A stretch of 64,000 nt of DNA. Source: an uncultured Bacillota bacterium (lineage in GTDB: Bacteria; Bacillota_I; Bacilli_A; RFN20; CAG-288). The position numbers were made by a program, and so were the translations under genes. This document shows positions 13,510 through 20,115 of this stretch, piece by piece (the stretch's first letter is position 1; the number at the start of each line of letters is the position of its first letter). The DNA lies in contig CASESG010000001.1 of assembly GCA_949290645.1 (NCBI GenBank), positions 255,104 through 319,103 on the forward strand. Direction: 5' to 3'. Under the pieces are notes generated by a model. The model did not search any database. It was not told the DNA's origin and saw nothing but the letters and a program-made list of their open reading frames with translations.

Positions 13510-15210
13510 TCATTTCCTCCTTTTTGTCAGTTGTTTCGCTTTGACTTTCTTTTTCTTCTTCCGCCCGAGAAAGAAGATCACGAGGAAGAAGAGAATCAAC
13601 AGAAGGACGCATCCGGCGATGATGAGGATGTAGGTCAAGGTGCTTCTCGGTTTGATGGAAAGGGAGAGAGAGGCGAGGACGACTTCGACGCCGTTGTTGA
13701 GGATCGAGATTTCGATCTGGCACTCTCCTTCTTTCTTGGCCACGATCGTGCCGTCTTCCTCACAGCCTGCGATCTCCTCATCTGTGGATCGGTAGCGGAG
13801 CGTCTCTCCTCTTCCTCCAACGAGGGAGAGGTTGAGCTTTTCTTTCTTTCCGGCTTCGATGGTGAAGAGATAGGAGTCGTTGTTTTCTGGCAAACCGGAA
13901 AGCTTGGGAAGCTCTGCCACTTCGATATTTGTCGTGAAAGTTTGTTCCTCTTCTTCATATTGGACGACATAGGTGACAGTCGCTGTTCCGGCCTTGAGGG
14001 GATGGATGGTCTTCTTGTCGGCGAGGACTTCGACGATTTCCGGGTCGGAAGATGTCGCTTGCACCGTCACTTTTTCCTCGAAGTTGATGTCGAGGCCGAA
14101 GTCGACTCCGACATAGGCCTCGTACTTGTCCTTGAGAGAGGAGAAGTCGAAGGGGAGGAGGGTGTCGGGAGCGTAGGCTTTCCTCGCCCATTCGGGATGG
14201 TCGACGAAGGGATTTCGGTTGTTCTGGACGTTCTTGTCGATGCGGTCGTTTCTCTGCCTTTCGTAGTCGTCGACCGGGTCGAGCTCGTTCCATTCGAGGA
14301 AGGTGGAAAGACCGTGCTGGACACCGAAGAAGATGTCGTTGTCGTCCTGGAGGGAGAAGTCGTCGGTAAGGACGAGGTGGGGTTCTTCCTTGGAGTTGTT
14401 CTCGTCGGAGGAATAGCGCACGCCCATGTAGAGGAGTGCGCGGGCGATGTCTCCCTTCCACTCATCCATCGGCTCGAAGACTTCGATTCCTTCTTCGTTC
14501 TCTCCTCGATAGCCGGAGATGTCCTTCGTGCCATCGGCGTTATAGGAGTAGAGGACCTTGCTGTTCTCCTTGTCCTTGACTTCCCCATAGTCGAGATTGT
14601 GGTGCCCGGCGGAATTGGTGTTGTGGTCGGCGGCGATCAGGTGATGAAGGTCCGTTCCGGCCCCCTTTGAGGGGTCGCCATCTCCTGGGGCGAAGCCGTG
14701 GCTTTTTGCCCAGACGTGTTCCTTGTCGATCTGGATGTTCCCGTTGTTCTTCCTCTTGCTCTCCCAGTCGATCGATGTCAGTGTCTCGTCCTTGGCCCAG
14801 CCGTTTCCGTTGACGTTGGTGTTGTAGGCCTTTGTGGGATCGTCGTTATGGGAGGAGTAGAGCTGGACGAGGAAGTAGTTCTCGTTCTTGTCGTCCTTAA
14901 ATTGATAGGTCGCGGGATCGATCTTCTGGGAGAGAGCGTCATTCCGGTCGGTGATCTTGTACCAATCGTTGACCTGGGTATAGCTGAGAAAGGAATTGTC
15001 GAGGGAGATGGTGTCGTAAAGGGAGGCGATGAAATCCTCTCCCTTGAGGGAGGTGTCGACGTCCTTGTAATAGAGGTCGATTTCCTCCTTTGTGGAAGGA
15101 GTGAGATCGAGCATCTGCGATTCATCGAAAAACTTGCCCTGGAAAGAAGTCTTCGGTGTCAGAGAGGGGGAGAGAAGGAAGGGGAGGACTAAAGCAAATA
15201 GCATTTTCAT
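13510..15210 (-). CDS. Secreted, membrane-anchored endonuclease I family protein
   Basis: Extracellular DNase/RNase of the EndA/NucM (endonuclease I) family. In 566 residues: a signal peptide (about 1-18), the nuclease domain with EHVWAKSHG (about 164-172) and DLHHLIAADHNTNS (about 187-200), which hold the catalytic His and metal-binding Asn, then a C-terminal part with a Big_2-like Ig stretch (VQATSSDPEIVEVLADKKTI, TATVTYVV) and a second Ig-like segment, and finally a transmembrane helix (about 535-555) followed by a lysine-rich cytoplasmic tail. So the nuclease would face outward from the membrane. Likely jobs are nucleotide scavenging or DNA uptake. GGAAG lies 12 bases before the start; a second Met is two codons later. 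Confidence 0.88.
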   Translation of the reverse strand: MKMLFALVLPFLLSPSLTPKTSFQGKFFDESQMLDLTPSTKEEIDLYYKDVDTSLKGEDFIASLYDTISLDNSFLSYTQVNDWYKITDRNDALSQKIDPATYQFKDDKNENYFLVQLYSSHNDDPTKAYNTNVNGNGWAKDETLTSIDWESKRKNNGNIQIDKEHVWAKSHGFAPGDGDPSKGAGTDLHHLIAADHNTNSAGHHNLDYGEVKDKENSKVLYSYNADGTKDISGYRGENEEGIEVFEPMDEWKGDIARALLYMGVRYSSDENNSKEEPHLVLTDDFSLQDDNDIFFGVQHGLSTFLEWNELDPVDDYERQRNDRIDKNVQNNRNPFVDHPEWARKAYAPDTLLPFDFSSLKDKYEAYVGVDFGLDINFEEKVTVQATSSDPEIVEVLADKKTIHPLKAGTATVTYVVQYEEEEQTFTTNIEVAELPKLSGLPENNDSYLFTIEAGKKEKLNLSLVGGRGETLRYRSTDEEIAGCEEDGTIVAKKEGECQIEISILNNGVEVVLASLSLSIKPRSTLTYILIIAGCVLLLILFFLVIFFLGRKKKKKVKAKQLTKRRK

Positions 15211-15420: not shown

Positions 15421-15448
15421 TTGACATTTTGAGTGGGGGGGGTAAAAA
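15421..15448 (+). promoter_or_regulatory. Candidate phase-variable promoter with a G8 spacer
   Basis: A perfect TTGACA (15421-15426), a 16-base spacer ending in eight G, and TAAAAA (15443-15448, 4 of 6 matches) stand directly before the lipoprotein operon. Spacer length sets sigma-A promoter strength, and a G run of this length is prone to slippage, so a gain of one G would give the optimal 17 bases. A caution is that the predicted transcript would start at or next to the AGGAGG ribosome site, leaving a very short leader. Confidence 0.55.
15435..15442 (+). repeat. Homopolymeric G8 tract
   Basis: Eight consecutive G followed by T and seven A, within the promoter spacer of the lipoprotein operon. 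It is the longest G run I found in the window. Confidence 0.9.
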
Positions 15449-15468
15449 AAGTCAAGGAGGTAAAGTTT

Positions 15469-16581
15469 ATGAGAGCAATGCGATGCAAGTGCCGTGTCTT
15501 GAAAGCGTCTTTCCTCTGTCTTTTCCTTCTTCTTTGTTCCTGTGGGGACAAAGAGAGCCGACGGAGTTATACCTACATTCCGGAAAAGACACAGCTGAGC
15601 AGTCCAGTGGCGATCAGTGTCGGAAGGTATCTCTATTGGGGTGAAGTGCAAGATGCGACGGAATACTCCGTTTTTCAAAATGGCGAACTGGTCTCTCAGA
15701 CGACAGAGCGCTTCTGTGTCCTGGAAGATTCATCACAGGATGAGATTTATACCATCGTCGCTCAGGGCGACCTCTATGAGGATTCCGAACCCGTGAATGT
15801 CACGGTTTGGAAATCGGAAGGATTCTCGGATGAGGAAATGTTGGATCTTTCGTCTGTGGATAATTTCCACGGCACGATTTCAAAGGAGATTCGGCTCGTC
15901 AAGCTCGGTGCGGACAAAACCATCGATTTGGAGGCAGTGGTCGAAGCTCGCATCTCGGACTTGTATCTTCAGATGGATTCCGTAGAGGTCCATGGCTCGA
16001 TTTCCTTGGAGGACGAGTCCCATTCCTATGCCATAAATCCGCATTCCTTGGTTTTGGACTGCATCGGCGAATGCTCATGGGTTGCGAAAGATGGCAAGAG
16101 CGGAATCGATTACGCCTCCGATCATGCCTATGACGACGAACAGCTCAACGGCGTTCCCGGTGAGGATGGCAAGGACGCCATTCGCTATTCCTCCGTGGTC
16201 CTTCGCTCCGATTCGAACCTGCTTTTGCAGGGAGGCAACGGCGGGAATGGTGGATCGGGGAGCTCTACCAAAGCTCAGTATATTGATGTGCCCTTTGTTC
16301 CGGACAGCCCTTATCCAGGCAAAGGAAGCAACGGCGGAAACGGCGGTTGTGGCCTCAACACGGATTTCCTTCGAATTCAGATTTCCAAGATGGATTCCTT
16401 CCTGACTTTGAGGGACGGCAATGGCGGAAAGAAAGGCTTGCCGGGCAACAACAACAATTACGGCACCGGAATCTGGGCAAGTCTGAATCGGGACAATTAT
16501 GATATCGGAAAGCCGGGAAAAGCAGGTCAGTCCAACCTGGGAACCATACTGGGAAACAGGGGGCAGATTCGTTATGAATAA
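15469..16581 (+). CDS. Glycine-rich lipoprotein of unknown function
   Basis: Predicted surface lipoprotein of 370 residues. The N-terminus has basic residues, a hydrophobic core and the lipobox LCSC with the modified cysteine at residue 25. An N-terminal part of about 60 residues (ISVGRYLYWGEVQDATEYSV..) reads like a fibronectin-type fold. The C-terminal half is a series of glycine- and asparagine-rich segments (GGNGGNGGSGSS, GKGSNGGNGGCG, GNGGKKGLPGNNNN) preceded by GVPGEDGKDA, which resembles collagen-like or PGRS-like low-complexity sequence. AGGAGG lies 8 bases before ATG 15469. Its stop overlaps the next lipoprotein start by 8 bases. No enzymatic motif is visible; adhesion or shielding is a guess. 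Confidence 0.8.
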   Translation: MRAMRCKCRVLKASFLCLFLLLCSCGDKESRRSYTYIPEKTQLSSPVAISVGRYLYWGEVQDATEYSVFQNGELVSQTTERFCVLEDSSQDEIYTIVAQGDLYEDSEPVNVTVWKSEGFSDEEMLDLSSVDNFHGTISKEIRLVKLGADKTIDLEAVVEARISDLYLQMDSVEVHGSISLEDESHSYAINPHSLVLDCIGECSWVAKDGKSGIDYASDHAYDDEQLNGVPGEDGKDAIRYSSVVLRSDSNLLLQGGNGGNGGSGSSTKAQYIDVPFVPDSPYPGKGSNGGNGGCGLNTDFLRIQISKMDSFLTLRDGNGGKKGLPGNNNNYGTGIWASLNRDNYDIGKPGKAGQSNLGTILGNRGQIRYE

Positions 16582-17833
16582 AAAGTGGGTTCTGGCCCTG
16601 ACTTTGCTTTTTCCGACCTTGGGATCGTGCAGCGCGCTGGACTTCACGACACACGAGATATCCACGGCCGAGGACTTTTTTGCGATGAAGGACGGAAGGA
16701 ATTATCAGCTGGTGGCGGACATTGACCTTCAGGGACAGGCATTTACGCCGGTGAAGGTCAAGTCCTTCGACGGAGGAGGATTCGCCATCCACAACTTTAC
16801 GATTCGGGAGTCTCCAAAGGATGAATACTACGGCCTGTTCAAGGAGGCCAAGACGGTTTCGAACCTCGAAATCTACGACTTTCAGCTCTCGATCTCCGCA
16901 AATGAGAGCTACATCACAGTGGGCGGAATTTGCGGAACCGTCCATGACAAGGCCGAGAATCTCTTTGTTCACGATGGAACGATCAACGTCAACAGCACAT
17001 ATCGATCGAACCTTGCGTCCCATGCCTATTGTGGAGGCGTCATCGGGGATCTGAGAGGCCCTGGGAATCATCTGCGTGCGGAGAATCTTCGAATCACCAT
17101 GAATTCGGTCACCGGTGGTTTTGTCGGAGGAATCCTCGGGACGGGCAATAACGTCGAGCTGGATGATTCCAGTTCGTCACGCAACTCGCTTGTTTGCAAT
17201 GCCTCTGGGGCAAGTGTTGCGGGAGTCAGCGGCTTCGGGCCAGGCGTTTCCTTATACCGGGTGACGAGCCAAGACAATACCTTGGTCGCAACTGACAAGG
17301 GAAAGAACGGTTCCTATGCCTACGGAGTGTCTTCTTCCTTGTCGAAAAGCAAGATAGTGGCCTCTCGTGGAAATTCCATGAAAGCAATGAATTGCTATGG
17401 TATAGCTGGAAGTGCTATCGATTCCAATGAAATTCTTTCCGCTGAAAACATCTTTCAAGGATCAAAAGAAAACAGTGGCTTGGCAGGAACGATGGGAGAA
17501 ATCCAGAATGCGATGTCCCTTTCCCATTCTTTTTCTGGCGCCGAAAGCGAGTACGGAATGTGCGAATCCGTCCAAAGCTATGTCCAGAAATTGGCGGTCG
17601 ATGATGTCGATGCGAGAACAGATGTCTTTTCGGCTGAAGCCAACGATCTTTATTTGGATCGATGCGTTTGCGGTTCGAATGTCGAAGGACCCAACTGCAA
17701 TCGGTTGGAGATTCTGTCCTATGTGGATTTCCTGTCCTTGATTGATTCTTTTGAGTTGGATCCGGAGGTTTGGGAGAAGGATGAAAATACCGGAAGCTAT
17801 CGCCTGGCAATCGAAATGGAGGAAAACAAATGA
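16574..17833 (+). CDS. GLUG-repeat-like lipoprotein, first paralogue
   Basis: Surface lipoprotein of 419 residues with signal peptide and a cysteine in TLGSCSA at about residue 19. The opening (STAEDFFAMKDGRNYQLVAD..IDLQG..FDGGGFAIHNFTI) is the pattern of right-handed beta-helix proteins with GLUG-type repeats, where turns such as GGICGTVHDKAENLFVHDG, GGVIGDLRG and GGFVGGILGTGN recur. The C-terminus ends with CNRLEILSYVDFLSL and a W-containing segment shared with the next gene. ATG 16574 lies inside the end of the preceding gene; the ribosome site is weak, so translation is probably coupled. The overall similarity to the downstream gene suggests tandem duplication followed by divergence. Confidence 0.8.
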   Translation: MNKKWVLALTLLFPTLGSCSALDFTTHEISTAEDFFAMKDGRNYQLVADIDLQGQAFTPVKVKSFDGGGFAIHNFTIRESPKDEYYGLFKEAKTVSNLEIYDFQLSISANESYITVGGICGTVHDKAENLFVHDGTINVNSTYRSNLASHAYCGGVIGDLRGPGNHLRAENLRITMNSVTGGFVGGILGTGNNVELDDSSSSRNSLVCNASGASVAGVSGFGPGVSLYRVTSQDNTLVATDKGKNGSYAYGVSSSLSKSKIVASRGNSMKAMNCYGIAGSAIDSNEILSAENIFQGSKENSGLAGTMGEIQNAMSLSHSFSGAESEYGMCESVQSYVQKLAVDDVDARTDVFSAEANDLYLDRCVCGSNVEGPNCNRLEILSYVDFLSLIDSFELDPEVWEKDENTGSYRLAIEMEENK

Positions 17834-19194
17834 AAAGGAATATCCTAGCCGTGCTTTGTGCCATGACTTTCTCATCATACGGTTTGACTTCCTGTGAGGG
17901 AATCTTCGACAACAAGGTAGACAGCGTTGATGATTTTGAGAAGGCCTTGTCCAAGCAAGGAACTCTGGTTCTCAACGTCGACATCGACGGAGGAGGAAGG
18001 GCCTGGCCAGGCTGTAAAGCGGATGTGATTCAGGGAAACGGGCATACGATTCGGGGATACAAATTACAGGATTCTTGTCTCTTCCCAAGCGCCGAGCAGG
18101 TCTCGAACCTCGTTTTGGAAGATATCACTGCGGTTCAGAAAGGATCTTTGCTCGGAATCGTCACCCAGTCGAATTCCTCGAAAGTCACTCTCGACAAGGT
18201 TTTTCTGAAAGAAAGCACCTTGGAAATCGACGAAGACTTTGACCGATATTATAAGCAGTTCAAAGTCGGGCTTTTGGGATCCTATGCCAATGCGACAGAC
18301 TGTGGCGTAGAGGGATGCATCTTGAAAACGGCAGAGGATTCTCTGCTGACTCTCTCCTACCGGGAAGGAGACATCGGGCTTCTGCTTGGAAGGAGCGATC
18401 ATGTCACGGGATGTTATGTGAAGGATTCCAACCTGGAAATCAAGAACAAGGAACTGTATGCGGATCTTTATGTCGGCGGACTTGTTGGCTATAGCGACGG
18501 CATCATCGAGAATTCCTATGCGGAAGGAAACACCCTCAAATTCCAATCCAGCTTTTACCACAAAGGAATGTTGGACGTAAAGAGCACCCAAGATGACAAT
18601 TTCGTCGGTGGATTGGCTGGAGGAACCGGAAAAGGGCAGATCGCAGCCTGTTATGGGGAGGACAACGACATCACGGTCTACTCGCTTGGCGGATTATCGG
18701 TCGGCGGTCTGATTGGAAAGGCGACGGACACCAGTCTGATGGAATGCTATGATGCCAACAGCTCCATCGCCAAGACAGGCGAAGCGCAGACAGACCGGAA
18801 GCGTTATGCCGGACAGGCGATTGGCTATGCCAAAAGCTGCTCGGTTTCCAACAGCTTCGCCTATTCGGAAGAGGCCATCCTCGAGGAAGGGGAAGGAGAA
18901 ATCGGCAGTTCCATCGCCTGCGGCTTCTCGGGAGGTAACGAAGACACGGTGTTCAGCTATTGTGCCAGCTATGCGACGACGTTGAGCTCGGCCATTCAAG
19001 ATAGCTTTACGACGGACGGGGCCATATTTACCGACTGCTATACGACTCCCGGAGACAATCCCAACGTGAATCGACTCGAGGTCTTGGAAAAAACGGATTG
19101 GATGGGAGATGGAATGATCCGTCGACTGATGCTGACAAATCCGGCGTGGGAAGCCGGCCTTTCTCATCCGACGTTAAATCTTTCCCAAAAATAG
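17830..19194 (+). CDS. GLUG-repeat-like lipoprotein, second paralogue
   Basis: Surface lipoprotein of 454 residues; lipobox GLTSC with the cysteine at residue 22. The mature part opens with DSVDDFEKALSKQGTLVLNV and VIQGNGHTIRGY, then shows repeated beta-helix turns: GGLVGYSDGIIENSYAEG, GGLAGGTGKGQIAACYGE, GGLIGKATDTSLMECYDA. These match GLUG motifs found in secreted adhesins and peptidases. It ends with PNVNRLEVLEKTDWMGDGM, parallel to the preceding protein. The start overlaps the preceding stop (ATGA), making a three-gene translationally coupled unit. A hairpin (CCCGCC/GGCGGG, about 19222-19238) follows 28 bases after the stop but has no T-run, so it is a doubtful terminator. Confidence 0.8.
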   Translation: MKRNILAVLCAMTFSSYGLTSCEGIFDNKVDSVDDFEKALSKQGTLVLNVDIDGGGRAWPGCKADVIQGNGHTIRGYKLQDSCLFPSAEQVSNLVLEDITAVQKGSLLGIVTQSNSSKVTLDKVFLKESTLEIDEDFDRYYKQFKVGLLGSYANATDCGVEGCILKTAEDSLLTLSYREGDIGLLLGRSDHVTGCYVKDSNLEIKNKELYADLYVGGLVGYSDGIIENSYAEGNTLKFQSSFYHKGMLDVKSTQDDNFVGGLAGGTGKGQIAACYGEDNDITVYSLGGLSVGGLIGKATDTSLMECYDANSSIAKTGEAQTDRKRYAGQAIGYAKSCSVSNSFAYSEEAILEEGEGEIGSSIACGFSGGNEDTVFSYCASYATTLSSAIQDSFTTDGAIFTDCYTTPGDNPNVNRLEVLEKTDWMGDGMIRRLMLTNPAWEAGLSHPTLNLSQK

Positions 19195-19350: not shown

Positions 19351-20115
19351 ATGAACGGAATACGTATCCTCTTTTCTCTCTTCCTCCTTCCCTCCCTTCT
19401 CGTCCCGAATGCTTGTTCCTCAAAGGTTGAATACCGATTTGTTGTCGTCGATTCTCAGAATCTGCTTTTGAACGATGTCGAAGGCAGGTATCGGGAAGGG
19501 GAAAAGATCGAAATCCGTTTGGCTTTCCGTTCCGGACCGCGGGTTGGAGCCCTGATCGATGGGGAGTCCTACTACGGAGAGGCGACCTGCCAGGACGATT
19601 TCTGGTATGAATCGTTCGTCTATACCATGCCTGCTCGAGATGTCACCCTTTATACGACTCTCGACGGACGTACGGGACTGGAGAAGACCATGGATTTCAC
19701 TGTCTCCTACGACTATGGCCAATACGTCCAAGGAAAGGCCACGAAGCTCTTGAACCTCGCCCTTCTGGGATTGGATTCCAAGATCGTGACCGACTCGATT
19801 GCCGGTGATGTCCTTCGCATGTTCTATGACGGGGAAATTCAATTCCAGGAAACCCATCCCAGCAAAGCGGTTTTTGGCGATGACTTCCGCCTTGTCTCCA
19901 TGACCTATGCGGAAAAGGCCACCTTTTGCCAAGTCGATTTGGATTCGATCTCTTCCGAAGAGGATTCGTCATACGTCCTTCTGAATGCGGAAGGAAACTA
20001 TTTGACTCTCGACGAATATAAGGCGGATCATTCGGTTCTCTACGCTTCCGTCGATTCGAAGACCGGAAAGGTCTATGCCTATTACGGCTATGAAGCACGG
20101 TATGTCTATTTTTAG
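19351..20115 (+). CDS. Lipoprotein of unknown function
   Basis: Predicted lipoprotein of 254 residues, not recognised. The signal peptide is clear (RILFSLFLLPSLLVPNACSS) with the likely lipid-modified cysteine at residue 22; proline at the -3 position is unusual for a lipobox. The mature protein starts with a short beta domain containing two lysine/glutamate-rich strands (YREGEKIEIRLAF) and SFVYTMPARDVTLYTTLDG, a pattern seen in InlB/Flg_new-like B repeats. The rest has no known motif. It stands 156 bases after the three-gene lipoprotein unit and has its own -10 box and a CAGGA ribosome site, so it may be expressed independently of the G8 promoter. Confidence 0.72.
   Translation: MNGIRILFSLFLLPSLLVPNACSSKVEYRFVVVDSQNLLLNDVEGRYREGEKIEIRLAFRSGPRVGALIDGESYYGEATCQDDFWYESFVYTMPARDVTLYTTLDGRTGLEKTMDFTVSYDYGQYVQGKATKLLNLALLGLDSKIVTDSIAGDVLRMFYDGEIQFQETHPSKAVFGDDFRLVSMTYAEKATFCQVDLDSISSEEDSSYVLLNAEGNYLTLDEYKADHSVLYASVDSKTGKVYAYYGYEARYVYF

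Follow-up and report, generated by a model that had tools for sequence, protein, structure and literature searches.

The window is the whole stretch of DNA analysed here, 64 kb from the 1.2-Mb genome of an uncultured gut member of the Bacilli (G000). Within it, an endonuclease I gene and an operon of lipoprotein genes diverge from an intergenic region that contains a promoter-like site with a run of eight guanines (Table 1). The original prediction had described TTGACA, a 16-base spacer ending in G8, TAAAAA, AGGAGG and a lipoprotein start, and every one of these elements is present in the sequence as stated. The full spacer, G8 included, reads TTTTGAGTGGGGGGGG, and the G8 is followed by a run of seven adenines in the -10 region. 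The distance from the -10 hexamer to the ATG of lipoprotein gene 1 (15469) is 20 nt.

Table 1. Features at the lipoprotein operon, and tracts of at least eight G (or C) in the genome of the window
Feature	Position	Strand	Basis or remark
Endonuclease I gene, secreted, apparently membrane-anchored	13510–15210	-	Pfam PF04231 (9e-30), weak Ig-like domain match; divergent from lipoprotein operon
-35 hexamer TTGACA, 6/6	15421–15426	+	sequence
16-bp spacer, TTTTGAGT then G8	15427–15442	+	sequence
G8 homopolymer, putative slippage site	15435–15442	+	sequence
-10-like hexamer TAAAAA, 4/6 to TATAAT, abutting the G tract	15443–15448	+	sequence; same geometry in relatives
Shine-Dalgarno AGGAGG	15455–15460	+	sequence
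Weak promoter-like match TTGACT-18-CAAAAT, same tract as spacer, facing endonuclease I gene	15426–15455	-	promoter scan; near chance level
Lipoprotein gene 1, 370 aa, lipobox LLCSC, glycine-rich repeats	15469–16581	+	ORF
Lipoprotein gene 2, 419 aa, ATG at 16574	16574–17833	+	ORF
Lipoprotein gene 3, 454 aa, GLUG motifs (PF07581, 6.6e-7)	17830–19194	+	ORF, profile match
Fourth lipoprotein-like gene, 254 aa, 156 bp past gene 3; operon membership uncertain	19351–20115	+	ORF
G000 tract: window lipoprotein operon, G8 promoter spacer			
G000 tract: BspA-type LRR lipoprotein, TTGACA-N8-G9-CG-TAGGAT			
G000 tract: secreted protein with GAGFATWYW signal sequence, promoter TTGACA-N10-G8-TATAAA			
G000 tract: secreted family-2 glycoside hydrolase, promoter TTGACA-N5-G9			
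G000 tract: G8 in leader of secreted protein, by sequence probably another family-2 hydrolase			
G000 tract: G9 in leader of a secreted protein			
G000 tract: C8 in divergent promoter-like site of a secreted protein			
G000 tracts: two inside 5' coding part of secreted proteins			
G000 tracts: two without clear target			

The first three lipoprotein genes overlap by 8 bases (genes 1 and 2) and 4 bases (genes 2 and 3), as expected from the translational coupling that had been proposed for them, and these overlaps make coupling plausible. All three encode signal peptides with a lipobox, and surface exposure of their products is predicted. Lipoprotein 1 had no match in Pfam or NCBIfam, no confident family was found for lipoprotein 2, and neither 2 nor 3 had a match in sequence searches of the PDB. 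Orthologs of lipoproteins 1 and 3 were sought in 23 genomes of the family and none was found.

From the position of the -10 hexamer, transcription of the operon would start at about 15455. Such a start would just keep the whole AGGAGG, giving a leader of about 14 nt that begins at the ribosome site. A simple promoter scan of the window did not list the TTGACA-G8-TAAAAA site on the forward strand because TAAAAA lacks the final T; the same scan found no better forward-strand promoter-like site in the intergenic region. The reverse-strand match that shares the G tract possibly points to bidirectional control, though it lies near chance level. A short leader had been named at the outset as a weak point of the promoter, and this objection is partly relieved and partly upheld. 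Promoters of the poly-G class described below have short leaders as a whole, with a distance from the -10 to the start codon of 23 nt at the 5th percentile, 33 nt at the 25th and 46 nt at the median. The 20 nt in the window is below the 5th percentile, and the very short leader remains the weakest point of the promoter reading here.

A run of eight guanines is not rare by itself. Under a dinucleotide model, 3.5 G8 runs are expected on both strands of 64 kb, and under higher-order models 0.2–0.4 G8/C8 runs; the G8 of the promoter is the only G run of six or more in the window. An argument from depletion of G8 in the genome was considered and dropped, since the expected number varies with Markov order. 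The dinucleotide expectation, the poor -10 hexamer and the very short leader all fit an explanation in which G8 stands beside TTGACA by coincidence, the transcript of the operon begins elsewhere and the G tract is simply neutral sequence. Against this explanation, the control patterns were nearly empty. The pattern TTGACA-G6+-TAAAA had 7 matches in 39 genomes of relatives and its reversed control had none. A looser pattern had 29 matches in the 23 family genomes (25 distinct sites once overlaps were merged), compared to two for reversed G and one for poly-C; the sole poly-C match itself precedes a secreted gene of G000. With a stricter pattern, 18 of the 296 genomes searched in the class had 45 matches between them, and the control had none. 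A phylum-level sample consists of the class of the window alone and adds no outgroup. The exact promoter of the window was also sought in viral contigs, where it was not found. It is the combined architecture, rather than the G8 by itself, that exceeds chance.

Genes behind such promoters are of a particular type. A scan of named genomes by DNA pattern only found at least 118 stretches, and the taxa among the matches listed include gut Clostridia, Bacilli, Lachnospiraceae, Treponema, Streptococcus and Streptobacillus, among others. Also among the matches listed, outside the family of the window, 44 of the 60 callable genes directly behind a poly-G promoter look secreted, compared to 79 of 380 other genes on the same contigs, as judged by a crude predictor used in the same way on both gene sets. 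The enrichment is strong (odds ratio 10.5, Fisher p = 2.7e-15), with a p value that is optimistic, as neither paralogs nor related species count as independent.

The same association is found within the genome of the window. Pattern searches, the source of all genome-wide tract counts given here, found 11 tracts of G8 or longer in G000, and nine of these lie where a gene for a secreted or surface protein has its 5' end (Table 1). As a background, 9 of the 57 genes in the window look secreted by a crude signal-peptide count. The lipoprotein operon is a single locus in its genome, and the other G tracts there serve unrelated secreted genes. Sister genome G001 has seven tracts of G8 or longer, six of which are upstream of secreted genes; the seventh is in the start of a DNA methyltransferase gene. 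With nine of 11 tracts at secreted genes, control patterns nearly empty and no better promoter-like site on the forward strand of the intergenic region, a coincidental tract is very unlikely.

Several of the tracts in the genus are within coding regions. In G000, a G10 falls within the start of a gene for a secreted protein (L162, G000:C4:44274, reverse strand). Every start codon there that has a ribosome site is out of frame with the long reading frame of the secreted protein, apparently a typical OFF state as judged from the reading frames. A relative of this gene in G007 (L218), with a G8, is also in an apparent OFF frame. As for the other coding-region tracts of the genus, a lipoprotein gene in G004 (G8) appears to be OFF and five others appear to be ON. 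Homopolymer tracts in G000 and G001 are concentrated at surface genes (9/11 and 6/7), in promoters and in coding regions, and the window tract is a putative member of a small genome-wide poly-G contingency set, or phasome, that includes the coding-region tracts.

Other features accompany some of these tracts. The methyltransferase tract of G001 (L170, G001:C17:1170) is a G8 that falls among the first 50 codons of a gene for an N6/N4 DNA methyltransferase, a candidate for phase variation; its 57%-identical ortholog in G013 is not among the G8+ tracts listed for that genome. At the secreted-protein genes L164 (G000) and L167 (G001), the G tract is separated from the start codon by a catabolite-repression-like site (GAAATCGCTTTCA), which suggests that poly-G control may be combined with sugar control at these genes. 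An intergenic element is common to L199 (G004), L188 (G005) and L210 (G015), surrounding tracts of G8, G18 and G11. AATACCTTGCCTCTCTC precedes the tract in this element, and in L199 and L210 ATCCTCAGATGGATCTAGGTGAAAGAAACTAGGTC is also present after it. Searches of these loci and of the window locus against Rfam gave no match.

The spacer lengths of poly-G promoters differ from those of ordinary ones. Ordinary promoters on the same contigs (TTGACA + TAWAAW, without a G run) have a spacer peak at 17 bp. Poly-G promoters were compared in three sets, drawn from loci L037–L154 (among the matches listed) and from genomes of the class, and 17-bp spacers make up 6/125, 1/91 and 6/45 of these. Their modes are 18–19 bp, and in the mixed set also 15–16 bp. 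Within the family of the window the spacers spread over 13–19 bp, and the overall range is 13 to 21 bp. The original prediction that one added G would bring the window promoter to an optimal 17-base spacing finds no support here, as poly-G promoters cluster at 18–19 and avoid 17. The assembled genomes may mostly record weak states of these promoters, or the DNA of the G tract may move the optimum.

Tract length differs between close relatives. G012 and G004, both in the genus of the window, have one poly-G promoter in orthologous position; together with the start of its gene it is ca. 97% identical over 300 bp, and the sole internal indel of that stretch is in the tract, G9 in G012 and G8 in G004. 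Between G000 and G001, the promoter of a secreted protein has G8 vs G10 and the leader of a hydrolase-like gene has G8 vs G9. A lipoprotein promoter has G9 in both of these genomes, with a conserved core of TTGAC, G tract and TAGGATACT.

In more distant uncultured Bacilli, there are up to 20 poly-G promoters per genome. Five genomes of uncultured Bacilli or Bacillota, G041 (L062/L088), G042 (L085), G046 (L101), G047 (L110) and G050 (L067), have 7 to 20 closely similar copies each, and the multi-copy promoters that were sampled drive families of paralogous secreted proteins. Six of the copies in G047 are in tandem, ca. 3.8 kb apart. Among groups of at least three promoters with an identical flank, most vary in tract length, with 8–12 Gs; in one example, 10, 11 and 12 Gs are found behind TTGACAAAATTGTA. 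Some contigs of the multi-copy genomes end at poly-G promoters, as expected of repeats. One of these genomes is labelled Anaeroplasmataceae and recurs, at identical coordinates, in the sample of the class of the window, so that the window falls in that class.

Length differences of this type might be thought to arise in sequencing or assembly rather than in the organisms. Most of the genomes involved are metagenome assemblies, and errors in homopolymer length are known for some long-read platforms. An error of this sort would neither place G tracts in spacers ahead of secreted genes nor leave the controls nearly empty, and the pattern recurs over many independent projects and in named strains of Streptococcus, Schaedlerella and Streptobacillus. 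It is extremely improbable that the variation in tract length is an artefact.

The G8 could also be a fixed spacer element of a real promoter, either structural or bound by a regulator or by a sigma factor with a preference for G beside the -10, with no switching. Most copies have the tract directly next to the -10, the orthologous lipoprotein promoters of G000 and G001 have an unchanged G9, and the spacer distribution is shifted to 18–19 bp rather than random, all of which fit a fixed element. Such an element would not be expected to differ in length between orthologs with near-identical flanks, or between paralogs with identical flanks in the same genome, nor to allow spacers from 13 to 21 bp. 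The coding-region G tracts of the same genera, some in ON frames and some in OFF frames, would also be left unexplained by a binding site. A fixed element is considered unlikely.

What is left as the likely reading, held with fair assurance, is a phase-variable promoter: the G8 of the window would be a contingency locus in the spacer of a sigma-70-type promoter, of the kind known from porA and tp0126. The original prediction of a candidate phase-variable promoter is backed by the enrichment over controls, the association with secreted genes, the tract-length differences in relatives, and the ON and OFF coding tracts. Strand slippage in replication would add Gs to the G8 tract or remove them, changing the distance between the -35 and -10 hexamers and with it how strongly at least three co-translated surface lipoproteins are transcribed. 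Three lipoproteins, perhaps four, would switch together. This reading supposes a tract that differs from cell to cell, use of the TTGACA at 15421 by RNA polymerase, and an output that follows tract length. With G8, a 16-bp spacer and a 4/6 -10 hexamer, the assembled genome probably holds the promoter in a weak state. Several observations count against this reading: TAAAAA lacks the near-obligatory final T, the predicted leader is very short, eight Gs are at the low end of slippery lengths, and the lipoprotein orthologs of G000 and G001 have G9 in both species.

In gut commensals, the phase variation known so far is mainly by DNA inversion, and poly-G promoter switching is known mainly from Gram-negative and spirochaete pathogens. 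A search of the literature, limited to open-licence papers, turned up neither phase variation by poly-G promoters nor such a phasome in uncultured gut Bacilli. The mechanism is already known from porA and tp0126, and its broader distribution is the more interesting part. Poly-G spacer promoters may amount to a phase-variation system that is widespread in uncultured gut Bacilli and other gut bacteria and has not been described before. It would comprise genome-wide phasomes, large secreted families in which each gene is under its own slippery promoter, and a preferred spacing of 18–19 (avoiding 17) that reflects a shift of the optimum by the G tract or a majority of cells held in a weak state. 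This wider proposal is a serious possibility that stops a little short of being probable. A whole poly-G contingency set in uncultured Bacilli would mean that simple slippage alters the surface of a large share of the gut microbiota that has been little studied. Such a set is directly testable by counting Gs in existing metagenomic reads.

Known systems share different parts of this arrangement. The vlp system of Mycoplasma hyorhinis has poly-A tracts. In this multigene family with one promoter per gene, the homopolymers are near the promoters of surface lipoproteins (cited in PMC3899988). The multi-copy poly-G families of other Bacilli resemble vlp in that every paralog has a variable promoter to itself. 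The window differs: its tract is G8, not poly-A, and it is a single-copy operon with several genes behind one promoter rather than a set of paralogs with a variable promoter each. The PhasomeIt-type simple-sequence-repeat (SSR) phasomes of Neisseria and Campylobacter have G/C tracts at surface genes, in promoters and coding regions, and include phase-variable methyltransferases. G000 and G001 are similar in having genome-wide sets of tracts at surface genes, but those phasomes were described in Gram-negative pathogens, whereas the host of the window is one of the uncultured gut Bacilli.

The closest parallels are two promoters with poly-G between the -35 and -10 boxes. In Neisseria meningitidis porA, a poly-G tract lies in the -35/-10 spacer of a surface-protein promoter, with a change of one base per G (PMC7864442, PMC3899988). 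In Treponema pallidum tp0126, which encodes an OmpW homolog, transcription depends on the length of a poly-G tract between the -35 and -10, and the reported optimum spacing is 17 nt (PMC7864442). The window also has a homopolymer between recognisable -35 and -10 boxes, the latter just 4/6. It is like porA in having poly-G within the spacer of a surface-protein promoter, and unlike it in that porA encodes a Gram-negative porin with experimentally shown switching, while the window holds a Bacilli-class lipoprotein operon for which switching is inferred. Compared to porA, the Bacilli have a modal poly-G spacing of 18–19; compared to tp0126, the window belongs to another phylum and has another gene behind the tract.
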